Assembly: GCF_947623445.1 (NCBI RefSeq) | Contig: NC_135241.1 | Location: forward strand, 18,416,501 to 18,480,500 | Direction: 5' to 3' | DNA length: 64,000 nucleotides | Origin: Clavelina lepadiformis | Lineage: Eukaryota; Chordata; Ascidiacea; Aplousobranchia; Clavelinidae | Shown: piece after piece, positions 6,001 through 64,000 of the stretch | Layout: each line of letters opens with the position of its first letter | How positions within the stretch are numbered: position 1 is the stretch's first letter | Program-made: the position numbers and the translations under genes | Notes under the pieces: model-generated | What the model was told of the DNA's origin: nothing | The model's input: the letters and a program-made list of their open reading frames with translations, nothing else | Database searches by the model: none

Positions 6001-9000
6001 ATGTTACAACTAAGTAAAATGTCATTATAGTTTACTAACCTTTTGATGTTTCTTCTGTTGACGACTTTGTTACAGTAGATGCTACATTGTAAACGAAATT
6101 ATCAAAATTATATTCCTATATTAACATATCATTTCAATACCATGCTTATTGCCTAAAATTACATAATCATGAACCAGAATACATAAGCACAAGCAATTTA
6201 ACAATTTCCACCACTAAAAAGCTGTTTTGTGTCAGAATTGAAGACATAAAAATTTATGATAAACCAAAGTGTTTGTCAATGAGTGTGGCATTGATACGGC
6301 AAACACATTGAGATAAAAACAATTAAAACACAACCGCATATACATCACATGCATAGTGTTTATCCTATATCTAAGCAATTGCATTAAAAGAAAATCATAC
6401 CATAAAGACGAAACCCTTGTTAAACCAAATTGAAAGAGACACTGATCAAGCTTAAAATACAGTAGCATATCACAGGAAACACCTGAAATCGTCCTATTTC
6501 TGACACTACTAATTATTCCATGTTTGGAATCAAATCATTTAAAATCTTGATCCTATTTAATGTTGTTGATAATTTAATTTGGGGTCTTAAAATTTATGCC
6601 TACCTCCTTTCTTTGGTCTTTGTTTCTTGTTTTTTACAATAATTTTGTAAAGAAGATCCTTTGGTGGAGGCAAAATTTTGTTTGATTCAATCTGCAAACA
6701 AGAAATTAATGTCATATCTATCACTATCTTCACAAAACAAAAAGATTTTGTGCTGGAAAGAATGAACTTAATTATCCTACATCGTAAAGGCACTATATAA
6801 TGGTAGATGTGTGTATTTCAAAATAATTAGGATGCAGTCCACGCCTTTTCAGAACGGCACTGGGGTATACTGTCAATCATCATTTAGTAACTTACAGGGA
6901 ATTCATCCAATGGATCAATCAGTAGTTTCTCTTTGAAAATATCTCTGCAGTATTGCGCCATTTTGGCTTGTTGTTGAGGGCTACAAAGAAATTATGTGAG
7001 AATATTATGACACAAATTCCACAGAATTGCAAAATCCAAATAAATATAACAGGACCTGTAAACAGAGCCTTATGGCTTACAAGACAAATTTATTTCAACC
7101 ATTCTTAATGTGGATACAGAAATTTCTCCTTTTCTAATGGTTATGACAATAGCAAGAACATTGTACTTGTCAACGTGATTTTCAAATGACAAAATCACAG
7201 GGTATGGAGAGGTCTTGAAGGCGCTTTCATTAATCGCTTCAACAACGTCTCGAAACAACACAGGAGTGCACAATGTAAAACCATGATTTATAATAGGCTC
7301 ATCATCACCATCCCAGCAATCTAACTCAACGCAGCGACAGCCCGTGAGCAGAACCTGGCGATACATTTCTGCCGAGGATTTGCTGCGATACTGAGTGCCT
7401 AAAAATGCGAATAAAAGCTTTCAACATACATAATAGGGCTCGATATCAATTTCTGACTTTTGGGTAGTTTTAACAATAACTAATTACCTATAACAAATAT
7501 TTGTTGGGAAGTGTTTGAGATCCTAATAAATATTTTATTGAAAGAAACTGTAAATTACCAGTAAGGTACGTATTGTGAGATGAGTTAATGAAATAATGTG
7601 AAAGAGGCAACGTCATGTCTTGATGCTCAGCATATTTTTCGATACCAACAATATTATTGTCATCAGACTGAAGGTAAGCATCAAAACCTTCTGGAGTTAG
7701 TTGACCTGAAATATTTCTAATCCGATAAATAATGGATCTGTGGAAACTCAATTTTTAATTTCACAACTAGACGAAAGTACTAATTCTGTCTGAATTTCTG
7801 TTGTCTAAAAAGTAGCAGATTTCAATGTGACAATATCCTGAATTTTCCCTATTGTTTGCAATGCCTGTAGCTGCAGCGAGGACTGCATTGTAGAGGATGG
7901 AAGGTAGTAAAGCAATTATCGTCCGAGATTAGGTCTTGCGTCGAATAACATTTTATGAGAAGGAACAGTGAGTGGTCCAAAAACTTTCTAGTTATAGATT
8001 AGTTGAAGTTGACTTGTTACTAGGTGCTAAGAAAAATATGACTAAAATGCAACAAAAAGCAGAAAAACAAGGTTAATGAAGTGTTAATTGAACTTTACCT
8101 CTCTGTGAAAACATGATGTTTGGTTCATATTCCTGGATATAGTCTCCTGCTTGATCATCTGTTGTAAATGGGTAAAGGATTTCATTAAGTTTTGGGTCCC
8201 GTTGCACAGTGTTAACAAAGTCTTTCATCTTTTGCTTGGTTATATACATCCTTTTTGCCCCAAAGCCCCTGCAAAAGTTTTTGATTTAATGAATAAAGTC
8301 CTAAAACCATATCTTTTTACCTTATGGCTCTTCTTTCCTAGCTTTAAGAGAACGGACGACTTTGCGCACAAGAACAATCAGAGTTAAAAGCAAAACTCAC
8401 AATTCAGCAAATACTGAATCCATTTCAGTACGCAGGCAACAAAGCTGGAGTAGCTTCTTGAACCTTGAAAGTTGAAACTCTTCAGGGTCAATAGTAGAAT
8501 TTTTCTGAATAAATATCATCATTGGTATTGAAATTATGGGAAGGAAGGAAAATAATATGGAAACAAAATTATTATTAAAAAATCATCATGAAATTTGGCA
8601 AAGATAAAGTCTCATCTGTATTGTATCCACCTAAACACTATACTGTATTATAATTAACTTAACAATTGCTCATATTCTGCTTACAGATCGTGACAAAACA
8701 ATACCACCTTGAAAGATCAATTATAACATTTTAAATATATGTAACTTGAATAATATTGAAATCCAAAAATGAGTCTACCACCCTGGTAGACTGTAAAAGC
8801 ATAGACCAAGAACTAAGGAAAAATGATTATATTATGATAAATAGTTAAAACCTATGTTAAAAGTTATATGCTTTGTTACACTTAGCAAAATGGTACCGAG
8901 TACAAAATTACAGGTTTGTTAAAGCCCTTTACATTGTGCTTAAGGGCTGATATGTGTTTACTTTTACATGTTTAAACACTTTGAAGAACTTATATTTGGT

Positions 9001-32063: not shown

Positions 32064-33046
32064 CTAAGATTCTTTTTCATCTTTGTGTTTAACCAACCCT
32101 TTGTCAATTAAATCTGGGATCTCCACGGCAAGCCATGGTCCAAGCTGGAAACAATATGATAATAGGAACCAACATAAACATACCAAATAGATTACGAGCA
32201 CATCCACACACGTACTGTAACTATGTAGCATTAAAAATATATACTGACTTACTCCCAATGCCATTGCATGAGCAATACCAAATTTTGGAACATTTCTTGC
32301 CCACAGTGGTTTAAAATGATCTGTCAAGCAGATTTTACCACCCCTGTACATTTTTGCTGTTTTTCCATCTAATTCAGGAAGAGCAATTTCTGGTGCAGTT
32401 GCAGGAAAGGTTATTGGAATCTGCAATGTTTGTACAGCGAAAACAAACAGCGTAGTTAAACACGGTTTGTGCTTGGCATCACAAAAAGACATTTATTGTT
32501 ACATTTGAAAAGCCATTATTTCACCTGGACAGGGGTAATTAAATATTACTTACATCAAATTCAACCTTAAATTCATATTTGCGAAGATCTTTAATGTACC
32601 AACATTTGCCAAACCAGCGTGTGCCATCTTTATTCGATTCCAAACGAAACCAATCATTGTCATTTTCTTTGTTGTTTTCCACATACTACAGTGTTTCAAA
32701 ACAAGTCAAATTCAATTATTATATGACAGAATAACATTGAGTCATTTTTGCACAATGTAATAAATCAAACTGTACAGCTAAAATGCCGTAACTATTAATT
32801 TATAAATGTAAAACCTACATGCCTTAATATATTGTCATCAGTGACAGCAGTTGACTGCTGACAAAATTTACTGCAGATCAACATTTGTACAGTATAAATG
32901 TTCAATATGGTTTTCATACTTACAGCAATTAAGGCTTTATATTCTTCCTTTAATCGATTTACCCATTCGTTCTGATCACGAGGACCAGCTTTTGTTTTAA
33001 GAAGTGGAATATTTGATAGAGTTTTCTTGGTGAGATCGTCAACCAT
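32064..33046 (-). CDS. UFC1: Ubiquitin-fold modifier-conjugating enzyme 1
   Basis: E2-like enzyme that takes UFM1 from UBA5 and passes it to targets through UFL1, chiefly at the ER. Four exons (33046-32924, 32685-32554, 32420-32253, 32144-32064) join in phase to 167 residues, the family's normal length. The N-terminus has [22 protein letters not shown]; the second exon carries [20 protein letters not shown]; the third has [13 protein letters not shown] and the catalytic Cys in [16 protein letters not shown]. The last exon gives [15 protein letters not shown]. The start ATG at 33046 matches the family start; an in-frame ATG four codons upstream is possible but unlikely. Confidence 0.97.
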
Positions 33047-46963: not shown

Positions 46964-49469
46964 ATGGATACTGTGAAAGAATGGCTTGATTGGTTTGTTT
47001 GTATCAACAATCCTACTATTCCAGAAATGTGGGACCAACAGCCTACATTTCTATTAGCTAATTTATTGTATCTTCTGATGGCTGCAATGTCACTTAAATT
47101 TGCAGTGCGCCATGGATGGAACAGTCGGTAAAACATTAGTGTCAATGACAATTTGTTATAACCTTACCCTCAAATCCAGTAAACTCTATTATTTTTTAAT
47201 AACGGAAAAAAGTGTCATTGACCTTGTTTTCTCCAGCTATACATATATGTGGTTTGCTGCGCTCTTCCATGGGATTGTCACGGAAATTGTTTCCTACCAG
47301 TTTCCTGATATAAACAACTTTTGGCATAGTCAAACTCCACTGATATTTGCTGGACGAAGATTTCCGCTTTATATTGTACTTTTTTATCCTGCTACTGTAA
47401 GTATAAATTTGCATTGTTAACTGCTATTTATGTTTATAATAAACTGCATGCTGTTGTGATTTTCTTTGACTGCATTTTCCTGTCAAAACTGTTGGCGTAT
47501 TTTGCTGAATATGGACATTTAAGGATTTGTTTGAAACTTATGGGCGAATGTTTGTTGGAAGTACTTAATGTTCAGATTACTCATGCTTACATTGCTGTTG
47601 AAAACCTGAAACTTCCTGGGTGGGTGGAACCATTTGCAGTTGGACTTTTTGATGTTATCATTGACTTTCCATATGACATCATGGGTATTAAGGTAATCAG
47701 ATGTTCTCTGAAAATTTTAATTTACTCTAGTCTTAGAATAGTTTTCCGAGATGTTTATTTATTTTTTTATGTAAATTATTACACTGATAAATTTTCATCG
47801 AGGATTATGTAATATAACTGGTTTGTAATATAATACATGTCTAAAAAGTGTTGCTAGTAAAATTTAATCATCCAGAGTAGTGGGCTTCAAAAACAAAGAG
47901 TCAGTATAAGTGGACCGAATGTTAAAAAAGCTGAGAAGCACTACATTATACAGTTAAAAGTCATTTATTTAATAACTGAGTCATAAATTAATTGTCAATG
48001 AACTCATTGGCTAGTAACTGGTTAAGTTCCTGTAATTCAATTTCCAGAATTGTAATTTTATGAGATTGTATTTTAACAGCTAATTAGTAATTACTAATTA
48101 ACTAACTACCAGCATTTGAAAATAAACTGACTTATCTTTGCCAGAATATTTTCAGATTACTTGTGTTTCAGCTGCTGTGGTGGACCTGGCATGACACTGA
48201 CCACAACATTGCTGACAGGCACTATTGGGTGCCTTGGACGAGCTATTTCTTCCATATGAGTTTCCACAGGTAGCTATTGTGCGTTCTGTCAGTGGGCAAT
48301 TACTATAATCTGTTTGCTAACATTACCATTTGTTAACACCTTATGGTGGCTAGCTGTGGTGTAACGTTTTGGTGTCAGTACCTTTGTTATCTTGTTCAAG
48401 TGACTGTTGTTAAATTATCGCGTTCAAAATAAAATTCCTGGTCCCATCATGGAATTAATGTGAACTTAATTTGTTGTCTTTTATTTGCAGCACATTTGCA
48501 GCCTTGCTGAATGGTTCGAGGTACCTGCTGACTGGCAGTGCTGACAAGAAGGTTGCATCCGGTGGTTTTGTTCGAGAATCAATTTGCGTTATAATCACCG
48601 CAATGTTTTCCATGGCCTTTGCTGTTATTTTCCAAATGCTTCCAATTTATCACGGGCTCAAGGATGGCTTTGGCTTTCATACCGAAGTGATCATGTTTAT
48701 CGTTTTTGCGCTGTATTTTGGGATAGTCTACTGGTATGACAGGGATCCACCCAATGAGGTAATTATAAGAATGAAGAAAGCATTTTCAACCGTTAATCAA
48801 ATCAATTGTTCAGTATGAAAAACTGCCTATTAATCAACTTAAACTTTACTATTGAAAACTTAGTTACATTTGTCTGAGTCTTGTTCGATGCTCTTTGCTT
48901 AATGGTAAGCTTTGCACTCGTTTTTCAACCTGTGAACATGCTACTATGTACACAGCAAAAACCGTTTGTTATTTCTCCAGGCCAGAGGAAACGTCAACAC
49001 CAAGATGACTTTGTCTCGTTGGTTCAGTAACGAAAGCGCTGCAGTGATGACGATTTACTACATATTCTTCGTCATTCTTGTGGTGTTTGCCAAACCTGAG
49101 AATGAACGATCGTACGGTATGCATGAACCGATTGGACCCGCCGACGAGAAAGTGGAACTTTACGCTATTTCCGGAGCGGTTTACGTGAAGCAGAAATATT
49201 TAGACCCTCTAAATTACGATGAAGGTTATTTCGATTTTCGGTGTAGTGAAATAGGCGGGTTCAAAGGTACCCCTAACCTGACTGCCCACCCGGAGCTGAT
49301 AGGTACTGATTGGTATACTGTTTGTGGCACTCCTTATGAAAATCATGCTGAGTACATAGCAGTAGTATGGGCGTTTTGTGTTCTTGGCCTATATTCCTTC
49401 TTTAACGCTTTTGCCAGATCTGCTGGTCCAAAAAAGCCGAAAGGTAAGCCTAAAAGAAAAAGAGAATGA
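46964..49469 (+). CDS. Uncharacterised multi-pass membrane protein
   Basis: Six exons (46964-47127, 47237-47396, 47576-47692, 48172-48269, 48491-48758, 48981-49469) join in phase to 431 residues. It starts MDTVKEWLDWFVCINNPTIP with no cleaved signal peptide evident. Several hydrophobic helices follow, around LLANLLYLLMAAMSLKFAV, MWFAALFHGIVTEIV, FPLYIVLFY, EPFAVGLFDVIIDFPYDI, ICVIITAMFSMAFAVIF, EVIMFIVFALYFGIVYWY and AAVMTIYYIFFVILVVFA, plus a final one before a basic tail (KPKGKPKRKRE). The loop WWTWHDTDHNIADRHYWVPW is rich in His/Asp/Trp and could bind metal or sit in an active site. A soluble segment before the last helix carries three Cys. It recalls an invertebrate family of unknown function (possibly DUF7802, from memory and unchecked). 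The ATG context ACCATGG is good, and the AAAAAG before it may be a splice acceptor. Confidence 0.88.
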
Positions 49470-50609
49470 ATTAATTCTTTTGTCTCGGCTTTTATATGTC
49501 CATCTTGGCGAGTTAAACGGTGTTTTCCATCAGGTTTTTAATTTATTTTTAAAATTTTAATTTCTTGTTCAAATTGCAACTCAGTTTTTTTTGATTGTGT
49601 TTTGTAATCTCCGTGATTTAGTGAAGTGCTTGTTCAAAACTTGTACGCGTTGACTTAGTCCGGGAATTTTTGCACCTTCAATTGCAATAAATCAAGCAAT
49701 ATATGTCTACAGTGCAAGCCTTGTACCTGGACATGGTAGACCTACCACATTTAATAAAGAACAATAGAATGACGTAGCTGATAATGTGGAGGTCGTGTGA
49801 TGTACTAACTGCGGAAGTCTTCCGTTTAAATTCTTCATTGTTACCTGCGTAAAATTTCACCTACACAAAAAATTATAAAATGCGTCATTGTAATCGGTTG
49901 CCTTAATGTGTAGGAGGGGTGTCGATATACATATGATGTATGAAGATAATGTGATTGAGAGTTACTTCACTAGGAACAAATGGTTATTCTATGATAGAAT
50001 TCCTATACCTGCCCGTTTACGCAGCGTATGGTAGCGATTTCGCAACATATGTTCAATGAGTGCTACTGTAGCCTATAGCCCAGGGGCGGGCAACTTTTTT
50101 GGTCGGCGGGCCTGATATGAGAAAATAAACTACTTTAAATGTAAACTTTAAGTTTTAAGCATAGAGACCGAAAACAGTATTTAATGAATTTATTAACAAA
50201 TATTGTACTTCAATAGCTGCTGAAGTCAAAACTGAACTGCTAAACTGAACTGCTGAACTGTCTGCGGGCCGCTCAAAATCCCGTCGCGGGCCGGGTCCGG
50301 CTCGCGGGCCGTATGTTGCCCACCCCTGCTATAGCCTATTTTGCAGAAAACGTCATTCATTTTTACAGTAACAGTATTTTTAGTGCATCCGTACAAATAT
50401 GGTTAATGTAAGGCTAAGAGAGAAAGAAATTTAGAAAGTTGTCATATTCTTCTAGAAAGCAAGAGAAGTTATAAAATCGCTCGTGAAAAGTTGAATGTGA
50501 AGAGTTCAGACTTCAGAGTAAACTTTCAGCATTTATATCATTTGATGCGTTTTTATGTGACATCAAGGATTAAGCTTGTCCAAATTATAGTGCAGGACAA
50601 TTTAACAAA
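49470..50609. other. Spacer upstream of adhesion GPCR A
   Basis: Holds the 3' end of the membrane-protein gene (AATAAA at about 49686), a hAT-type MITE (50081-50328) and the promoter side of GPCR A. No coding exon is supported. Confidence 0.6.
50081..50328. mobile_element. hAT-type MITE with GC-rich ends and 8-bp target duplication
   Basis: Begins CAGGGGCGGGCAAC and ends GTTGCCCACCCCTG, matching inverted ends. Flanked on both sides by CTATAGCC (50073-50080 and 50329-50336). The 248-bp body is GC-rich near both ends (CGGGCCG repeats) and AT-rich inside, unlike its surroundings. No coding potential. Confidence 0.9.
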
Positions 50610-53600
50610 ATGAACTTTCTCTCGCTGCTGTGCTTTGTTGCATGGCTTTTCTTCTTAACAAATAAAAACGATACCGTGACGGCCAATAGCGCTGGTAAGT
50701 GTGCATTTAGATATCGAATGTTATTTGTTAAAACGTGATTCTGTCTCGAAGGCTTTACCTGGTTAGTTTTGGTTTATATAGTTTTAATGTTCATTCTATT
50801 GCAGTGACATCTGTAAAAGAGTGGCGGTGTACTAACAGCGAGTACGTGATTCTGTGCCTCGATTCGATTCAATCAGCAGAATGCAAAAGTAACGTTGTTC
50901 AAATTTAACCCTTGGACAAGCATGTCGGATATTTTGCGACTAAGTTTTCTGTTTTATTCAAGATTTGTTAAGAGTTGAAATTGGTCAATGTCAGTTAAGT
51001 AAAGGACGTTGTTTAAACAATGGTTTTTCTCTGGGTGGCGAATTTTTAAACACCTCATCCTGTACTGGTGAGCATTATAGGCCACTATATAAACTGTACA
51101 CTGATTATATTAAGCACATAAGATATTGCGAGGCATATACCTATTGGAATAAGCCACTCTGTAAAGCATACTCGTGTTAAAACAGGCACAAGTAATTGCA
51201 ACATATCGGTGCCAACTGCAAAGGCCGACTCGGTTGCACCACGAATTCGATGCAATTGCGCTGAAGGTTACAAATGGTCAAACGGTTCTTGCAAAGGTTT
51301 GAAAACGCACCACGCAGGATAATCGTTCATCCATGATACTCGAATTAACTCATTATACTTAACAAAAGTTGTAACTATTATGCAGATATCAACGAGTGCT
51401 TAGAAAATCGATGCGATCCCAATGCAGAATGTTTTAACTTCCTTGGAAGTTATCGGTGTTCTTGTAAGGCAGGATATGTCGGCGATGGAACGAGTTCCTG
51501 CAGAGCATTTGCTTATATTAATCAACTGGCACGTTTCAAAATACCTTATCGTGTTGATCCACGGTGCATTTTGCTTTTTGTACCATTTCGACTAAAGTAA
51601 TATTTTGCTGTATAGTTCCTAACAGATTTAACATCTGAAGAAATTAGTCAGATTGCAATAGACATCGAAGCTGCAGTGTCTGAGCCAGATAGCTTGCAAA
51701 ACCCAGATGTGATTAAAGAAACTGTCGATTTTGTTCGAAATACTGAAGACTTGGTCAAAAATGGAAAAATTAAAGTAGGTCATTTTATAGCCTACAAGAA
51801 GTCTCCGTGGGGTTTAAATATTAAAGTTTTGCCATGTAAAGAAAAATTATTTGTTTAAAGATGACAAGAACAACATTCGGAAATTTAGTAAACATAACAG
51901 ACAGCATTGGACTCGCAATTCGTTATGACACGGCAAGACAGAAATACAGAGAGCTTAGAATTGGCCTAGCTGCTGCGTTACCTGCTTTAGGACTCGGTGT
52001 AGAATTGGATGAAGGGCATCCGTCGTTTCATACCGAATCAAACTTATTCACATTACACGTAAATTAACTTCCTAGCATTTAACGTTGTTATTTGTATACG
52101 TACGTTTAAAGCAAGTTATATTTTCTGTCAAGTTTTTTGATAACTTTTATTATTGTTGGTTGTTTTCCACAGTTTTGCTATCTGTATTATAAAATTGTGT
52201 TTTTCATCTTACCAGGCTGCCATAGATTTCGGATCCGGCTATCCTCGTCTGTCATTTCAAAGTGGAAATAACGGCGACACCGTTAATGTTGTTGTGCCTG
52301 AAAGCACCGTGCAGAAGGCTTGGGAAACAAATACCAACAGACAACGAAGGGAGGAGTCTGCAAGACGCAGAAGATCTGTTTTTGTCTACTACAAGGATGA
52401 TACATTTTTCTACACTGAAAAAAATGCGACTTCGGTATTCTGGACCGTCTTAACAATAATTGCACTCTTGTCATGTTGTTATAAACTATTGTGTTGTGGG
52501 AATGAACTGCACATAATAAATTCATTAATCTATTGCTTAGGTTATTTCTGTTGATATTGGGGTAAATGTCACTTTACGAAATCTTGTGGAACCCGTTAAA
52601 ATCCAACATCCAAAAACGACCTTGAAATATGGGAAGTTAACAACTCTTTCAGATCCATTTGATGTTAGTTTAACCTATTGTACTCGTATGTATCTAAGTA
52701 TGCAGCCAATTATACCTTTCCAACAAGTTCTAAAAGTTCACGGTGGGGTAACTTACGATAAACAGTTTAAATATATTTTTATAGACACTGAAAACAGAGC
52801 TGCAGTGCAGTTATTGGGACTTTGACAAACAGGACTGGTTAACCGACGGTTGCTGCTTGAATATATCTGCTGAGACTCCCGAGTGCTTATGCAACCATCT
52901 AACAAACTTTGCGTTGATTGTGGTAAGTTTTGGCGGTTAATGCTAAAATTTCTACTAACTCTTGTTTGCCACATTATACCCATATTCTGTGTTCGGTGGC
53001 CGTGTTGACGTTCTATCGTAGAAGAACCATGGTAGCCAACACCCTGCAGCTTTAAGTCTTCAGGACTTCATCGCTTTTTTCCAAGTTTATTGATTATTTG
53101 TGAGCAATGAGCATATTTATTGTTTTATTATGCTACCACAAGTTTAGCACCATGTTTTTGGCAACCCACAGTCAATGGCAAAATAATGTGCGATACAATA
53201 CGATTCTTAACCTGATTTAAATATGCTACTGTTTAATGCACTTTTTGTTGACAAGAAAACCGAAAATGTTCCGGTGGACTTTGCACTGAATTTAGTAAGT
53301 GATGTTGGATGTATTCTTTCCATTGTAGGTCTTGTTATCACCATCATGGTTCATGTTTTAAAAAGGTATGAAACATTCACATATTACGTTGCCGAGATGC
53401 TACAAATATTTCGCAGAAACGTTCCAGAATCTGCTACAATGTGTTGTATTTTTTTTCAGAGAGCTACTACGCAGAAGGCCCGCGAAAATAATTATTTTCA
53501 TAAGCGCAAACCTCTGCGTCTCTTATCTCATATTTATTGTTGGTATTTCTCAAACTGAAAACAAAGTTACCTGTTACGCAATATCAGCACTCTTACATTA

Positions 53601-55037
53601 CTTCCTTCTTGTCACTTGGTGTTGGATGACTGTGTACAGTTATGACATGTATCTTTCGTTGGTGAAGGTGAATCACTGCTAACTTTTAACTAATGGGTGG
53701 GCTGTATATTAACTCTTTAAACTTACCAACATTCAGAGCCAATAACGATATGTGAGTAAAAATTATAATTGTACTATAAGCATGCTAACTGAAAAAAGGT
53801 GTTTATAGCAATTTATTGAAAATTGAAATCAGTCAATAACAAAACGTATAGTATAAGCATACAATTAAAGGTTTTTGGCCGGAATGAAAGCAAGTTTCTC
53901 CGGTGCATGTCGCTTTTTGCCTACGGTGCCCCACTTGTGGTTGTGGCGTTAACTATGGGCACTGCCGTGGGTTATTTCGACAGGAATCAACAAAACTTAC
54001 TTTGTAATGGTGGTGAGCAAGTTGTTTCGATAAAGATTCAACTAAGAGCAAAGAGTATTGACACTTCGCAAGAAAACAAGGAGTCAATTGAAGTAGTTGT
54101 TTCTTTGTTTTTTAGTGCCGGACCCCCTCGCCACTTCTTACTACATAGCTGAGAATTTGTGCTGGTTGAGAGGTTATTCCCTGTATTTAGGTTTTTTGCT
54201 TCCGATGGGCTTACTCCTTCTTTACAATGGAACGATTTTTGTGCTGGTGTTTAGGGAAATCACTGTCAAAAGAGTAGGTACCTTTTATAATGTGATAGTT
54301 TTGGGTTTTCTGCCACCAACTAATCATGCAGACACCAAGTTGGTATTGTATTGCTCTCATCTAAGTGATAAACAGTAGCCAGCTTTAGCAGACAAATGTT
54401 CGTAACGTGCATTTGTAGGGGTTTATCCAATTGAGCCTTGTGTTGTTTTTTATTTATTGTATAGGTGCAGTCATCAGCAAGCAAACAAACTACCAGCCAA
54501 AGACTTACTCTTGCACTTACCATGTCTGTATTTATGGGAGTAACCTGGGTCTTTGGGTATCTAGTTTTGATTTCCAACGATTACCTTTACCTTCGCATTA
54601 CAAGCTGGATCTTTGCCATTTTAAATTCACTACAGGTTGAGGATTTAAATAGAGTTTACTCGCTAATTTCAGTCATCATCTGAAGTTCTAAATTGAAAAA
54701 ATTTAGTTTACGAAAATTTTCTTTTACCTAGAACGATTTATTGAGCTCAAAACAATCCATCTTTAACATTCAGGGCTTCGGACTCTTCATCCTAACTTCA
54801 GTTAGGCGAGCCGAATCCCGCCGCGTCTGGTGGAATCCGATCCAGGACAAGGTAGCGAGCACTTTTTCGGTCTTTCACGGAAAACATCGACGAGACCGGG
54901 GAAGTTATACCGTGAATGACAGAACCAATACCAGCAGATTGACATCGTCAATTAATCTTTCCCGCTCAGCCTCACAACGGCCTGTAAATATCTATGTCAT
55001 CGACGGAGTTGATCAAGACAAAATCAGCAGCATGTAA
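50610..55037 (+). CDS. Adhesion G-protein-coupled receptor A (EGF-GAIN-GPS-7TM)
   Basis: Sixteen exons: 50610-50694, 50805-50888, 50963-51067, 51186-51296, 51386-51552, 51616-51774, 51861-52058, 52216-52434, 52541-52663, 52785-52922, 53256-53365, 53460-53667, 53871-54012, 54116-54273, 54471-54635, 54774-55037; about 811 residues. Signal peptide [18 protein letters not shown]; Cys-rich segments to about residue 128; a calcium-binding-type EGF ([16 protein letters not shown]); then a GAIN domain ending in a GPS at about 425-460 with CSYWDFD and CLCNHLTNF, where self-cleavage falls between L and T. Seven helices follow, with [15 protein letters not shown] in helix 3 and [13 protein letters not shown] in helix 6, and a Ser/Arg-rich cytoplasmic tail. 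LALVKVF-like text after helix 3 leans to the ADGRG group, but subfamily is open. A basic run [13 protein letters not shown] lies inside GAIN. The EGF exon's 3' end is uncertain: donors at 51552 (GT) or 51504 (GC) both keep phase. Confidence 0.9.
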
Positions 55038-55514
55038 AATACCACTGTTATGCCGGATTCATCTGCCTTAATGTATATTCTATTATGATAACGTACATTT
55101 TACAAGCTTGTTGTTAACGTCTGTAAAATGGTATGCTGTTATTTTCAAGATTATCGTATTTAGCCTATATCTGTACGTTATCTTAAAATGCTATTGGCAA
55201 TGTCTTTCAGCATTCACTCCGTAGCGGCGTAGCCTATACTCTGTTGCTTAGTTATAGCATTCAACCTCAGCTAAACACAACACCTATCAATTATCCTAAT
55301 GTTTTATCAAATAATTCCGCTTTATATTCCTAATATATGTCACATATTCAACTCACTGAAACTATTTCATATCTGTCGATATTCCGCAACAAATTGACAG
55401 CTCAGTGACGACTGAAATTTTTAACGATTTAATCTAATCAGTAATCATATTAGTCTTGTCCTGACGGAGCTGTTGTGTACGAAAAGGAAATGTCGTTGCT
55501 CTATTGGTGGTTGC
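55038..55514. other. Short convergent spacer between the two adhesion GPCRs
   Basis: Only 477 bases separate the two stop codons, so both 3' UTRs must lie here and may overlap. No repeat or coding feature is seen. Confidence 0.6.
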
Positions 55515-58500
55515 TTATGAAGTAGACATACGCGGCAAGGCACAAGACGATACTGTTGATTGTGTACGAGGTATACGGAATAATTCCCTGACTTTCAGAA
55601 GACCCAGATTCCGAATCGATGAAATCAGTGCACTTCGCATGTCCGATTTACGTATAGTGAGGATAAAGATGCCCAAACCCTTGAAATAAAAAACATACAA
55701 ATTTATAACTTAATCAAGATTTAAGTGATTTTTGAAGCAAATACAAATATGAAATACTGACATTCAAACTAAGATCCAGTGTTTTATGTGACGCCATACC
55801 TTTTAAACTTTGGAGAAATTTTATTTAAGGCTATTAATAACGTTTAGAAGGCTCATTTTTGCCATCTATAGCTAGGTATAGGTATAACTATATATGTGGT
55901 AAAGGGTTATAGGAATTCAAAGCTTTCACATAAATTGTCAGTCCATTCTACCAAACGTATTATGATTGAATTGAATATTCATAAGCTGCAATTCAACTGC
56001 AAACAAGTGTTATACGTTCAGTTACATTAAAAGGAATATTCAACCTGAAAAGCACTGGATATGGAAAAAAGCCAGCTCGTAATCGTAAGATAAATTTGAT
56101 TTTCTGATATAAGCATTAGATAGCCGAAGACCCACGTGATCCCAAGTGTTGTCGTCATAGATATTGCGATGACGACTGATTGCTTTGTGGTGCGTTTTAA
56201 GTGCGCTTCTTTTCTCTGGATCGTTCATAGATGATTAATGCAGGAATATACAAATAATCACGCCATGTTAAAATGACGACACAGACCCAAATTACTCAAA
56301 GCCATTCCAAGACGTCATTACACTGGTAAAACTTATACATTTGAAATGTGCTTTTGTTTACCTGGCGGTTTTTGGCTATCAGTTCCCGATAAACAATAAA
56401 AAATGTTACGCAGTTATAGGTTAAGCTGATTCCAACTGGAACTAAAAAACCGAAATATAAGGAATATTCCTTCAGCCAACACATATTTTCAGCGAAATAA
56501 TAGGAAGAAACGGGCGTATTTACATCTGAAAAAAAAAATTTTTTCATACCGAAGGTTGATATTACTTTAAACGGATATTTCGCTATAATAAGTTGTTGCA
56601 ACTGTAAACAAACAAAGTTACATCATTTTTTCTCAATTGCAGTAATTTATCTCCATAATGGCAACAACATTTCAAATAACCTGGACCACAGAAGTAGTTT
56701 TCTACGGGTTGCAATTTATCAAAGTAGCCAACAGAGATGCCAATCGTGCTGCCAACTATCACAAGAGGACAGCCGTATACAAAAACGCATGCGTAAGCCA
56801 CGAAATGGCGTCGATTGTCCGCAAATACCTGAAAGTGCATTATCTCTTAATTTTATTAAACAAAAGGCAAGGCTACTTCAAGGGCGCCGGAAAAGGGAGC
56901 GAGGAGGGCAAGGAGGGCAAGGAGGGCAAGGAGGGCAAGGAGGGCAAGGAGGGCAAGGAGGGCAAGGAGGGCAAGGAGGGCAAGGAGGGCAAGGAGGGCA
57001 AGGAGGGCAAGGAGGGCAAGGAGGGCAAGGAGGGCAAGGAGGGCAAGGAGGGCAAGGAGGGCAAGAAGGGCAAGGAGAGCAAGGAGGGCAAAGAGGGCAA
57101 GGAGGGCAAGGAGGTGAAAATAGCCACAAATACGATAACGTGAAAAGGTTGCACGCATGTAATTAAATTAAATGTCAAGCTCTAGTATACGCTGGACGAA
57201 ATCGTTTTATTTGTTTTGGAAAAGTGTTCTACAGTATGAATGATAATAAGCAATCGTAAGCAATTAAACGTAAAAATATATAGAAAAGACTATGAGCAAT
57301 ATATAAACATTTACCTTGACCAAAGTTTTGTACATATCATAGCTGTAAGTGGCCATCCAAAACCAAGTGACTAGAAAAAAGTAGTGCAGCAAAGGCGTGA
57401 TAATTTCACAACTAAACATCCCGTCAACTTGCGAAATGCCAAAAAGAAATATGACGTAACATATACAGAGGTTGGCACAAATAAACATCAAAATCCTCAC
57501 TGGCCGCCTTCCATGTAACTCGCTGCAAATGCAAAAATTGAACAAATTCAAATATTTTATACTTATAGCTTCACAAAATGTTACCAAGTAAGTTTACCGT
57601 CGGATTAAATGGACAAAAATCGTCAAGAATAGACCGGCAATTGACAAGCCACATCCAACGCAACTGGCAACGTTCAGTACAACGTCACCCAGTATCGTAT
57701 CCGATTTCTGTGGGGCACAAAGAGAAGCGTTTGGAGACAAGCGTTGTATCACTGCATGAACTCAGGTATAGTACAAAATCCCATTGTAGAGGCATATTTT
57801 TTCACATAAGCAATCGTTTACTTACTATAAGAACAGCAAAATTGGTGAGGTGGTTGCAGAGGCATTCGGGAGGGTCTAATGTCACGTCCAAACAGCAGCC
57901 ATCAAATGCCCAATCCCTTCGTTCGAAATCCCAATAAGCGCACCTATAGCTGGTCCTTCGCATCTAAACAGAAGAGCACACATTAGCCAATCAGTGACTA
58001 AGTAATTGTGCTTTGATAATTATAATTAATGATCATCAAAATAGCCAGAAAAATGTTTTTAGAAGAAAACTAAATGTCTTTTACTATGCTTCACATACTT
58101 ACGATTTAGCTAACCTGCCTTTGTCCACTATCCAGTCTTATGACCGTCTTAGCTTAACCGGTTTCAAAAATGCGTTATTTGAGACAGTCAGGTTTTAAGA
58201 CAATATTGAAAGGAAAGGCATTGGCGGTAGGCGTACTGTCTTACCATCAGAGAGTCATCCCCGAGTGGACTGTTTTCGTAGCTGAAATTAAATCGTAGTG
58301 GTTGAATGCGGATGGGCTCACTTAGATTTGATAAATTATCGAAAATGCCAACATCGACGGATACGACCTGAAAGTAAGAAATTATTACATTGTAGCCGTT
58401 CTGAGTAGTCCTTTTTGTTTTATCGGTATTTGAAAACTCGTTGCGGTGTTCTGCAAAACTGACAACAAACATTAGTGCTGCTTCAAGCTTACCCATAAAG

Positions 58501-61500
58501 TTTTTTTGTCAGAATAAAACAGGTTGTCATTTTTGTAAAAAATAAAAGTTGAACGTCGTTCCACGTCAATTTCGGTAGCATTCCACGCTCTTCTTACGAC
58601 ACTACTCGGCAAAATAACACGAACGGATGACGTAATTGTGTCAGATATGTTCGGTTGAAAATGTAATGAAGAAAACTCCGTGTCGAAATCCTTGCTCGCC
58701 TAAATATTGAGTTAATGGGTCATTAAGACTGTAAAACTATAAAGAAGCATATACCCGACAAACTGACGCATAGGCCTATACACCTGTGTACCTGCATAAT
58801 AAACGAGTTTGTTGTGACGCTCAAATAGTTGTCATTTTCGGTCAACGCCACAGCATTTGCAAAAGACCACAACGAAAGTATAACGTCCTGTTTTTGTTGC
58901 CTTGTTTCCTCCGTGTTGTCCAACGTGTTGACGACCTCGGTCACGTGGCTTACAACTTGAGCGACTTGGCGCATGGTGTCGGTGAAAACCTTTAGAAAAG
59001 CATTATACTCTGTGTCTGTACTCGATACAGAAGAGTTTTTCAAAATACACACGGTCAATACAAATACAATACACGGTCATTCCGAATAGACCAAAACAGC
59101 AACTGCTGTGCTAATAACCTATATTGTCGATATATCCTGTGCTGATGTGAGCCTGTAGTATTAACTCACGTCAATATTACGTTGTTTCGCACGTTTGCCA
59201 ACGTTTCTCAAAAATTCGAGAAGATGTCCAACTTCGCTGGCATGAAACAACGTCGCATTTGATGTGAGCGTTTGTAGCTGAAAGGTGACGGCACGTAACT
59301 GACTTCCTGTGATTGACCCATCGCTAAACTACAACGAAACCCCACATTCAGACATCTCAATCATTAGTAGCCAAGGAAAATGTACGAGTTAAAAATTCTT
59401 AAAACTACATCGTCATATATAGGTTTTTACTTTGTATAACTATCTAATTTTCAAGAAATGATGGAAAATTTGTTTATATAGTTATGTTCAAACGCTCTCA
59501 GTGTACCTCATTTACGAGACTGTTTACTGTAGCATGGCAATCAAATATAAATACACTCGGTTCGTGGGATATAGCTTGAGACGAAGTAGAGTTGAACTGG
59601 CTTGAATTTAACTTTTTCATGCAGAGCAGCAAACCACGAGGTAAGCCTTTGTACAAGAAATGACATAAATGAACTTTGAAAGGCAAACGATCGATTCAGG
59701 CAAATATTTTGTTGACATTTAGTGCATTGTATATAGGCCTATGTTATCCGTTTTAATGCTTTACCTGGATTGTTTGGGCATGTTTCAACGGAAACCGCCG
59801 TTTCATTTTCGAAAGTTGATGGGAATGTTAAATTTTTTGTGGACAGTTTTGAACAAGATGCTGCAAAAGTAAATGTTATTGTAATGTACCACCGGAGAAG
59901 TAACATTTCAGTAACAAACGACTATATAAAGCCTACAATTTTTGCAGCAGGATCACCTCAAAATAACTACGTTGTTGTGTAATACCAAGCGAGAAAATTT
60001 GTTGACTTTTGTATAAGACAGAACACATCTATGTCAGAAAGTATAATCCCGGCTTATCGTTAAGTGTAGAAACCACTTCTTGAAATTTATGATATTACTG
60101 GATTCAATATTGCTGCTAATAAAACTGCCGTATGCCAACAATATACGGCTGCTAACAAAACTTCCTAATAAGCTTTATTGGAGCAAACCTACGTTGGCAG
60201 GACGAACTCTTCTGATGTCTCTCATAACCCTGCATGCATTGACATATTACCATATCGAAAACTGTCATGCAAGTTTCATGATGATCACATGACAAATGTT
60301 GGCATCGGTCGGTGTCTGTTATACAACATAAAATATATTTCTTCAGAACCTGAAGCCTAATGAATTGAACTCTAAAATTACCTAACGCTTCAACTTTAAT
60401 CGACATTTCTTCAGTCATGAAAACAGCATTGCCTATGTAGCAATAGAAAATACGAGATACATCTTACAAAGCCGTGGTGTGTCCTTCAGACAGCGTCTTC
60501 CGGTTATCTTTCCTTCCAAATTTTCGAACATTTCTAGGGATGATGATATGTAAAGAGTATACCTGCATGCAATTTATTATTACCACACTTTACTAAAGTT
60601 GCTTATTTTTACGTAATTATGGCAATACCTGTTATCATAATAAGCTGGTATAGCATTGTTGTTGTACACATGTATGCAATATAAGTGAACTTTTATTGGC
60701 TTAGATTTTACTGTAAAATCATTGCAACAATTAACGATTGGCACCAAAACATATAGGTTACGTACCTGACAACATCCTGATAGTTAAAAACATCCTCAAA
60801 AATGTCGTTCACCTCAACGTGCATAATAACGTCTTTTAAATTCTGTCGATTGCTGTTTAGCTCTGCTTTGATTAGGGACCGATTTCGGCAGTTAAGAACT
60901 TGGTCAAATTTCAAAGGGACTGTGTAAATAAAATCGTGAATGCATAAATCTTATACAGTTTGTATAATTTAAAACGATCCCAGCTGCTCCATTTCAATAG
61001 ATTTTTAAACTAAATGTTCCCTGTTGTACAGTAGCTCATTTTATTTCACCAGATATCTACAGAAACAAATATCAAAAAATTACTCATATTGATAAAAATA
61101 TATGCTATGTTTTCAAATTAGTAGATTGTGTGTGTTTATATATATTCTCTACAGAGTGCAATGCGCAGTAAACCAACTTTTACCAGGCGGTCACTGATCA
61201 GTGATCACAATATGACTAAACAAAACAGTGATTTCATATTCAAATCTACAGTCTTACGCAAAAACTGTAGTGTATTGCAGCGTATATCGCTTACAACATT
61301 TCGGCGTCATTTTTGAATATCTTTCAGCAAACGAACAATTATAAATGCAAGCATGATGCTATATTGTGCAGACCGTCATGAAAGTAAATTAGAAGAACCT
61401 CAATTCAGTAAGTCCGCAAGTCAGTAACCATTCATTAAGTTCTTAATTTAAATGTTTCAAAAGAGTAAAGACTTACTTGCACAATTAGCGGAACCGGTAA

Positions 61501-61940
61501 TATTTGACGAACATAAGCATAAAAACGACCCGAATGTATTTTTACACTTGCACCCAGGACACGTACTTGAGTCACATTCCTGGCTGATATCCGGATTGCT
61601 GTCATTGCATTCATCTTTATCTGTTTAATTTCGTCGTTAACCACTTTTGGAATACACTCGAACATGCTGTTATTTATAACTGTTTGTTATATGTTTTTAA
61701 TATACCTGAGCAATTTAACGTTGTTGTAGAAATATTCATATCAATGAAACCATCGGCGCAAACGCATTTATTTGATGATAATTCAAGTATTTCGTTCGTT
61801 CCGCACTGCGTTTGAGCATTGCATGCAGTACCTTCGTCGTATAAAGACAGAGTTAGCAACAAAAACAATGCCTGTGTAAAGTATGACGACTAACCTGATA
61901 AAATGATACAAAGCAGACAAGCAAGAACATTTTGCAACAT
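55515..61940 (-). CDS. Adhesion G-protein-coupled receptor B (EGF, SEA-like, EGF, GAIN-GPS-7TM)
   Basis: Exons on the minus strand: 61940-61895 (signal peptide MLQNVLACLLCIILS), 61831-61706 (Cys-rich), 61620-61477 (EGF-like, DKDEC), 60919-60766, 60462-60382, 60315-60193 (EGF), 59646-59507, 59328-59170, 58989-58792, 58699-58493, 58367-58245, 57963-57826 (GPS), 57707-57598, 57522-57315, 56828-56681, 56525-56362, 56215-56045, 55679-55515. The pair 60919-60766 and 60462-60382 reads like a SEA-type fold (DVIMHVEVNDIFEDV...AVFMTEEMSIKVEAL); their phases do not join directly, so an exon is missing or misplaced there. GPS: CAYWDFERRDW and [13 protein letters not shown]. Helix 3 has LVTWFWMATYSYDMY; helix 6 has LGITWVFGYLMLISE. 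Tail is shorter than in receptor A. From the exon at 59328 on, exon sizes match receptor A almost one for one. The start was chosen for its signal peptide and in-phase join. Confidence 0.87.
56900..57112. repeat. 9-bp G-rich minisatellite in a GPCR B intron
   Basis: About 23 tandem copies of GGAGGGCAA, nearly perfect, with a few changed units towards the right end (AGAAGGGCA, AGAGCAAGG, AAGAGGGCA). It lies in the intron between the helix 2-3 and helix 4 exons. Because 9 is a multiple of three, it stays open in five of the six frames; the resulting EGK, GQG, LLA, LPS and PPC repeat proteins are artefacts. Regular GGG tracts on the plus strand could form G-quadruplexes. Confidence 0.97.
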
Positions 61941-64000
61941 GCTTTTCTAAAGTTTGTGAGGTTATTGGCATAGGAAGGGTCGACAGTTCAGATTATTCCT
62001 TATTCATCAAACAACTTTAGAGTTGTTTACTTTTGCTTTGATAATTTCTTTTGTTTGCATATGAACAACTATTTACAATTCAATAAAATCTCGATTAAAC
62101 TTCAACCAGAGCGTAACTTTTTTTACTGTGCTTATGGTACATAAGCCTAAAACGCTATACGTTTTAGCTGAGAATTTAAAGCTTTCTGTCAAATTTTCTA
62201 TTCTTTATTTTATTCTCAGTTTTCTGTTCAAACACTATAACCTGTAGAGCTACGGATATCTTAGAAGAAAACATTACCACGTATATAGATGCAAGTTAGG
62301 ATATGACATCATATGCAACTACTTAAACAGTTGCATTTATCATACACCAAAATAACCCTGTGATTCAGATACTTGTTACCGGAATCTTCATTCATTTAAG
62401 TAGAAGTGCTGCGCATTTGTTCAGCGTTTTAAGACAAAGGAATCTAATTATTATGACACAGCTCTTAACCAATTGTTAATAAGTGTTGTTCGTAGCATCG
62501 TTATGTAACCTGTAGGCTACGTTCTTTTGCTGGACGACACACAGAGTTGTAAAAACGGACCCATACGTAAACAAGATGATCCTTTAATGACTCATAACAA
62601 AATTTTCCTCTCTGACTTATGGCAGATAAAGACTTCGTACCACCTACAGTAGCTTATTCAAGTAAAGTAAACACATTGACACAACAAGCATAAACTTTCA
62701 TTCAGGCGTATATTAGGGACGTAATTTTACTACAGCGTGCACGCACAAAATTCCCCATCTGAAACAAATATAACTATTGGCCTCTGAGTGCGGAATGCTC
62801 CACAAAACAAAACAAAGGTCTGATATCGGGCAAAAAAGTGGAATCAATAAAAATACAGTATAGTCGGTGACGTTCACAAGTCAACCATTACCAACAAGAA
62901 TACAGATTTCAAGAAAAATTCAAGTAAATTATGTTAAGATTTCTATGTCTCGACCGAAATTTATATGTAGGCCGCGGGTACGCCATACATGGCAGCCGAT
63001 GGTCTTTGAGTGGCTGAACGCAGGCAAATATGTTTAAAAGTAATACTGGGCCACGCGTGGATGGCCGACCAAAACACGCGCGATATTCAAATGTGCGCCC
63101 TATATAAGCCAGACTAAACATAACCCTCCCAAAATTCTAATTTTACAACCAAAAATTTGCCACTACATAAAATCTGCTTACCCGTTTGCTATTTCTTTAC
63201 CTTCAATATGAAACAGCGCTGATTTGACTTTACCAAATGTTAGTAACAATAAACATTTTTAATAACGCAAAGAAAATTTCATGTAATGCAATAAGTTGTA
63301 CAAAAACAGATAAACACAAAACATTTGTTAAGGCATGAAAGGAAAACATTTTTCGATTAAATCGTCTATACTGTCATTCATGTGTTTAAAATTTAAACAC
63401 AATTTTACTTTTTTAAACATGTTAAAGTGTTTAATTATGTGTTTAAGTGTATAAATTTTGTTAATTTGACAAAATTTAAACACTTTATGGGTTAAACACC
63501 ACAATCCATGACACGTTTAATAATGATTTATGCCTATTCTACACTTTTTCCACGCTTTAGGCGTTTAAATGTTAAACACATAACACAAAGATTACAAAAT
63601 GTGTCAAACAAAAAGGTGTTTAGGAGGAATGTGTTTATTTTGATGAGTTTTATTGAATTACATCTTATACTTTAAGTTGCTTTAGAAAGAATCTATCAAA
63701 AACAGTTCGGTACTATATGCTTTAGACTTGTTCGCATTACCCAATTACACGAGCTATTGTTCAGTATAAATTTGTATCTCGGACTCAATGCTTAGGTTTA
63801 AAGTTGGCAACTTGAAGTCGTTTTAAAAATTTTCCTGTATGGAGTGGCTGAACACTAAATTGTATTGTTCAGGCCTTACTGTAGGCTATATTTCAAAGAG
63901 GTGAAAGGGGCCTTGGCCACCCCGCCCCCATATTTTGTGTCTATAGGTTTCTACATCGAGTGGCGGTGTCTTAAAACTAACAATTTGTATTGTTCTCTTT
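61941..64000. other. Region upstream of GPCR B, no gene seen
   Basis: Should include the GPCR B promoter near 61941-62300. No exon with family similarity was found. 63375-63645 is unusually rich in GTGTTTA/TAAACAC motifs and is listed separately. Confidence 0.5.
63375..63645. repeat. Cluster of GTGTTTA/TAAACAC motifs
   Basis: At least eight copies of GTGTTTA or its complement TAAACAC occur in about 270 bases, in both orientations, including the near-palindrome GTGTTTAAAATTTAAACAC at its left side. This could be a MITE built of short inverted repeats, or a cluster of forkhead-type sites (RTAAAYA). No target duplication was recognised. Confidence 0.5.

Follow-up and report, generated by a model that had tools for sequence, protein, structure and literature searches.

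According to PMC2396169, 24 of the 30 adhesion G protein-coupled receptors (GPCRs) of Ciona have no clear vertebrate ortholog and are unclassified; two of the unclassified receptors have EGF repeats, and Ciona pairs that share 57% and 52% identity in the transmembrane (TM) region are also described. Here, we analysed a 64,000-nucleotide (nt) stretch of chromosome 2 of the ascidian Clavelina lepadiformis (C2:18416501-18480500; referred to as the window), which contains two adhesion-GPCR genes in tail-to-tail orientation, one on the + strand (50610-55037; PLUS) and one on the - strand (61940-55515; MINUS). We consider it likely, with a probability of roughly 0.85, that a single ascidian adhesion-GPCR gene was duplicated locally and long ago to give this pair, which lies in convergent orientation.

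Like the unclassified Ciona set as described in PMC2396169, PLUS and MINUS have a GPS and a seven-transmembrane (7TM) domain and are diverged paralogs without clear vertebrate orthologs, a likeness that is drawn from the published description and not from the Ciona sequences. Unlike that set, the genes analysed here are from Clavelina and come with a convergent arrangement and an exon frame. In total, we conclude that the two genes are ordinary members of the known, ascidian-expanded and unclassified adhesion-GPCR repertoire. A literature search that had most subscription journals and bioRxiv preprints outside its reach returned no full-text paper on Clavelina adhesion GPCRs or on inverted duplication of adhesion GPCRs, and the accessible part of PMC13197933 contains nothing on exon-frame conservation.

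Gene structure and domains of PLUS and MINUS

Exon models built by hand from splice sites give an open protein of 762 amino acids (aa) from 15 exons for PLUS and an open protein of 902 aa from 19 exons for MINUS. In window coordinates, the features are:

50610-50694, 50805-50888, 51186-51296, 51386-51504, + strand: PLUS 5' exons (signal peptide, Cys-containing segment, EGF-like, calcium-binding EGF)
51616..52922, + strand: PLUS GAIN/GPS exons of 159 (or 149), 198, 219, 123 and 138 nt (Pfam GPS; motif ...CNHLTNFA)
53256..55037, + strand: PLUS 7TM exons of 110, 208, 142, 158 and 171 nt and terminal exon of 264 nt with stop codon (Pfam 7tm_2)
55038..55514, no strand: gap of 477 bases between the stop codons
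55515..57707, - strand: MINUS 7TM exons of 110, 208, 148, 164 and 171 nt and terminal exon of 165 nt with stop codon (Pfam 7tm_2)
57826..59328, - strand: MINUS GAIN/GPS exons of 159, 198, 207, 123 and 138 nt (Pfam GPS; motif ...CNHLTNFA)
59507..61940, - strand: eight MINUS 5' exons (signal peptide, Cys-rich and EGF-like modules, linkers without Pfam match)

The gene models and the Pfam matches described below confirm the original prediction of a tail-to-tail adhesion-GPCR pair with stop codons 477 bases apart. To check the models, we aligned the protein of either gene with the DNA of the other using a purpose-written spliced alignment, and regained every exon of the models beginning with that of 198 nt, with the exception of the penultimate exon of PLUS, which was split. 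The PLUS/MINUS series from this exon is 198/198, 219/207, 123/123, 138/138, 110/110, 208/208, 142/148, 158/164 and 171/171 with matching phases, followed by the terminal exons. Thus, of the matching sizes and phases that had been predicted from the start of GAIN onwards, the part from the 198-nt exon on is borne out by both our models and the spliced alignment; the 159-nt exon of PLUS is uncertain, and the penultimate pair, given as 165/171, becomes 171/171, as PLUS has 165 nt only with the acceptor before 54471.

The GAIN-start exon of MINUS is secure (159 nt, 59328-59170, phase 0). In PLUS, the 5' exons have GT-AG junctions and read open, with the exception that the last donor (51504) is uncertain, the calcium-binding EGF exon that precedes the GAIN start having no good GT donor. 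A GAIN-start exon of 159 nt (phase 0, from 51616) requires a weak GC or GT donor, and one of 149 nt (phase 1, from 51626) requires a weak GT or a non-canonical donor. The 149-nt exon is favoured because the GAIN-start exon of the paralog L070, 137 nt long, is in phase 1. 5' of GAIN, the two genes are unlike in exon number, with four in PLUS vs eight in MINUS, and also in content.

Both proteins match Pfam 7tm_2 over profile positions 3-248 of 250 (E values 8.3e-28 for PLUS and 3.3e-29 for MINUS) and, directly upstream, Pfam GPS (6.4e-10 and 1.8e-10). The HLT motif is intact in both translations, which have CNHLTNFA at the GPS; we take this to be the usual sequence for GPS autoproteolysis (H-L-T/S triad) together with the tethered agonist. 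We conclude from 7tm_2, the GPS before the first TM segment and the HLT motif that PLUS and MINUS are adhesion GPCRs. The Pfam scan of both proteins gave no GAIN match, and the putative GAIN domains are assigned from position and from the alignment between the pair and its paralogs.

Vertebrate EGF-TM7 receptors (ADGRE/CD97) have the familiar layout of EGF, calcium-binding EGF, GAIN/GPS and 7TM. PLUS, in which Pfam cEGF, EGF_CA and EGF_3 score above cut-off, resembles this layout; MINUS has EGF matches only below the Pfam cut-offs. For both genes, ADGRG2, ADGRG6 and ADGRL3 score above ADGRE5 in PDB sequence searches; therefore, the EGF-TM7 layout of PLUS is a likeness and does not demonstrate ADGRE membership.

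Relationship between PLUS and MINUS

The genome searched comprises 209,060,895 bases in 95 contigs (published total, 210,089,204 bases in 102 scaffolds; C1 is 5,500 bases short of the longest published scaffold), and searches of it with the 7TM regions of PLUS and MINUS yielded 75 and 62 matching exons, respectively, including those of the window itself. By blastp, PLUS and MINUS align with 442 bits and 224 of 571 residues identical (39%), which speaks against a chance likeness. Over GPS+7TM, the top match of each gene among its own genome's loci is its partner (51.4% identity); the runner-up among the 28 other loci reaches 47.6% for PLUS and 46.8% for MINUS.

We inferred three trees. Tree 1 (GPS+7TM) has 33 sequences, i.e. 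the pair, 28 other Clavelina loci and human ADGRG2, ADGRG6 and ADGRL3; these loci are 27 of the 32 others matched by the 7TM search plus C2:1454k from a wider 7tm_2 scan. In tree 2 (GPS+7TM), ten divergent rows were removed (C7_14391p, C2_17325p, C2_14799p, C5_829m, C8_18327m, C8_18315m, C8_19181m, C2_1454p, C3_6717m and C8_13052p), and in tree 3, which adds GAIN and has 21 sequences and 487 columns, C5_13126m and C2_4685p were additionally removed. The split of the pair from all other rows has support values in the Shimodaira-Hasegawa (SH)-like approximate likelihood-ratio test and the ultrafast bootstrap (SH-aLRT/UFBoot) of 91.9/93, 95.2/98 and 97.8/99 in trees 1, 2 and 3, respectively. Reading this split as sisterhood assumes a root outside the pair; in all three trees, the human sequences are placed away from PLUS and MINUS. 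On tree 3, the approximately unbiased (AU) test rejected all four alternatives tested, which joined either PLUS or MINUS to the C2 864/902 pair (p 0.025 and 0.034) or to the 4319/4286 pair (p 0.005 and 0.00005); on tree 2, it rejected all tested alternatives except one (five alternatives, p 0.0008-0.021). In total, we conclude that, of the genes sampled, PLUS and MINUS are probably most closely related to one another.

The putative duplication is old. At fourfold sites, 23 of 76 are identical (30%) vs 25% expected from composition, i.e. these sites are near-saturated, and a clear DNA-level inverted repeat between the genes was not found in 48000-64000, where the scan gave one 28-nt pair, 75% complementary, with neither arm exonic. 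The 39% protein identity together with the near-saturated fourfold sites supports that the duplication is old, with no clear inverted repeat left. Nothing recent is thus seen in the inverted-repeat scan.

The exon frame in the rest of the genome

We compared the exon frame in 30 other loci modelled from genome DNA. In PLUS residue numbering, the junctions 326.0, 367.0, 413.0, 449.2, 519.0, ~566.1, ~619.0 and 676.0 have equivalents, at the same residue or no more than 3 residues away, in nine of them, all on chromosomes 2 and 3 (C2_864m, C2_902p, C2_274m, C3_6732p, C3_6737m, C3_6772m, C3_5803p, C3_5767p and C3_299p); C2_274m has seven of the eight junctions, the first being absent since the model begins there. 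Thus, the frame is not private to the pair. It is partly present in several further loci, e.g. C2_4584p and C7_13764m, while distant loci (C5_829m, the C8 genes at 18-19 Mb, C2_1454p, the C1 genes and single-exon genes) are off-frame or poorly modelled; exon ends are unreliable in the very divergent loci (C1, C8 18-19 Mb and the single-exon C2/C3 genes), which were kept out of the exon argument.

Exon sizes 138, 110, 208 and 171 are nearly constant across the nine frame-sharing loci. PLUS and MINUS have six of nine sizes in common among exons 198 to 171 (198, 123, 138, 110, 208 and 171), and PLUS likewise has six of nine in common with C2_902p, 17.6 Mb distant (123, 138, 110, 208, 158 and 171). 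C2_4286m, modelled apart from the 30-locus set, has 120, 138, 110, 208, 148, 140 and 171; C2_4319p is partly irregular. Because the frame is common to nine other loci, it is a character of the clade and says little about PLUS and MINUS as a pair. We conclude that the exon frame is clade-wide and that the exon series, which had been put forward as strong evidence of an inverted duplication, is not diagnostic of it: the duplication is backed by the trees and the AU tests, not by the reason originally given for it.

Other adhesion-GPCR pairs in the genome

Tree 1 has four sister pairs whose members lie no more than 50 kb apart. Three of them are on opposite strands, i.e. the window pair (tail to tail) and, in head-to-head orientation, C2 864m/902p and C2 4286m/4319p; only C3 5767p/5803p is direct. 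Three of four is too few for a test, and the count leaves out the C4, C1 and C8 arrays, which are mostly on one strand among the rows listed. C2 864m/902p and C2 4286m/4319p resemble the window pair as opposite-strand sisters with similar exon series and differ from it in their head-to-head orientation and in the tens of kb between their members. Moreover, C2 864m/902p (L068, C2:861500-871400, and L069, C2:895000-904900) is far less diverged than the window pair; because its branches are short (0.085 and 0.038) and its support is 100/100, it is predicted to be a more recent inverted duplicate within the same clade. It is quite improbable that adhesion-GPCR duplicates are preferentially inverted in this ascidian lineage and that the most closely spaced pair later turned into a convergent unit with antisense coupling.

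On C4, a large array at ~0.49-3.24 Mb consists of 7tm_2 matches with similar scores, most of which are on the - strand among the rows listed.

Alternative explanations

PLUS and MINUS could be non-sisters from one and the same ascidian clade that a rearrangement brought tail to tail, the shared exons being only the ancestral frame. The clade-wide distribution of the frame fits this explanation, as does C3 6732p/6737m (L070 and L071; C3:6725500-6744000), a convergent pair of the same clade that has EGF exons and shares the frame and whose members are not sisters. Several further points weigh against sisterhood. On tree 2, AU did not reject the strongest competing placement, that of PLUS with 864/902 (p 0.073), and neither 864/902 alternative was rejected on tree 3 by the more conservative SH test (p 0.071, for PLUS, and 0.083). 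Over GAIN+7TM columns, PLUS is 44.4% identical to C2_4286m (381 columns; 4286m is partly covered) vs 43.6% to MINUS (475 columns). Clavelina is the sole tunicate in the trees, five of the 32 matched loci are in no tree (C5:4106k, C2:5988k, C4:4332k, C8:19192k and C8:18303k), and C2:1454k alone entered a tree from among the further 7tm_2 loci of the wider scan (arrays on C1, C4 and others). Finally, other loci with the same frame rule out matching exon sizes as proof of a pair-specific duplication, so that the sizes do not discriminate. Against the rearrangement stand the UFBoot values of 93, 98 and 99 for the pair in the three trees and the rejection by AU of all four tested alternatives when GAIN is included, and we regard it as unlikely. 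Descent from different ancient adhesion-GPCR subfamilies with convergent exon structure, the outcome that the original prediction had named as speaking against it, can hardly be correct and is largely refuted already. The N-terminal modules are unlike and there is a slight difference in the top PDB match, which is ADGRG2 for PLUS and ADGRL3 for MINUS, but the genes share the 51.4% identity in GPS+7TM and, in a comparison made with human ADGRG2, ADGRG6 and ADGRL3 only, stay together and apart from all three in all three trees. These trees can separate subfamilies, as the Clavelina latrophilin-like gene C5_13126m joins ADGRL3 (100/100 in trees 1 and 2).

It is also rather unlikely that the convergent layout is functional, with mutual regulation of the two transcripts through an antisense overlap of their 3' ends. 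The gap is only 477 bases and, in a scan for twelve poly(A)-type hexamers, its + strand has no AATAAA/ATTAAA; the next AATAAA on this strand for PLUS is at 55685, beyond the MINUS terminal exon and inside the last MINUS intron. However, the missing hexamers are weak evidence because ~1.2 are expected per strand by chance (1.24 AATAAA/ATTAAA in 477 bases of each strand at the density of the window). Moreover, the variant AATATA at 55332 on the + strand and ATTAAA at 55433 on the - strand, where several variants are also present, would permit non-overlapping ends. Altogether, the hexamer pattern neither shows nor excludes a 3' overlap.

Neighbouring features in the window

In MINUS, the intron that separates the 208-nt exon from the 148-nt exon contains a 9-bp minisatellite, AGGAGGGCA, at 56902-57114 (23.7 copies, 97% matches); the antisense frames of 220 aa (56504-57163) and 165 aa (56646-57140) that span it are probably artefacts. 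Upstream of PLUS and ending ~1.1 kb before it, a + strand gene at 48459-49466 has exons matching Pfam DUF7802, a family of unknown function (1e-30 and 9e-9). On the - strand, the window has a phosphoinositide-specific phospholipase C exon at 7073-7420 (PI-PLC-X, 3e-33) and an exon for the ubiquitin-fold-modifier conjugating enzyme UFC1 at 32067-32492 (2e-38).

Proposed history and implications

In the history that we propose, one ascidian adhesion-GPCR gene would have been duplicated locally, presumably in place rather than by duplication followed by a separate inversion, to give copies that are now convergent. Both copies would have retained the GAIN-7TM exon frame of the clade while diverging strongly in sequence and in N-terminal modules. 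Each copy is most likely an ordinary adhesion GPCR, with self-cleavage of the GAIN domain predicted at HL|T; the stretch thereby freed, which starts with TNFA, may act as a tethered agonist for the 7TM domain.

For these adhesion GPCRs, a duplication specific to one pair must not be read from equal exon sizes and equal phases; only a tree that includes paralogs from the whole genome can decide. The analysis also contributes gene models to a receptor family that is expanded in ascidians and points to its other inverted local pairs.

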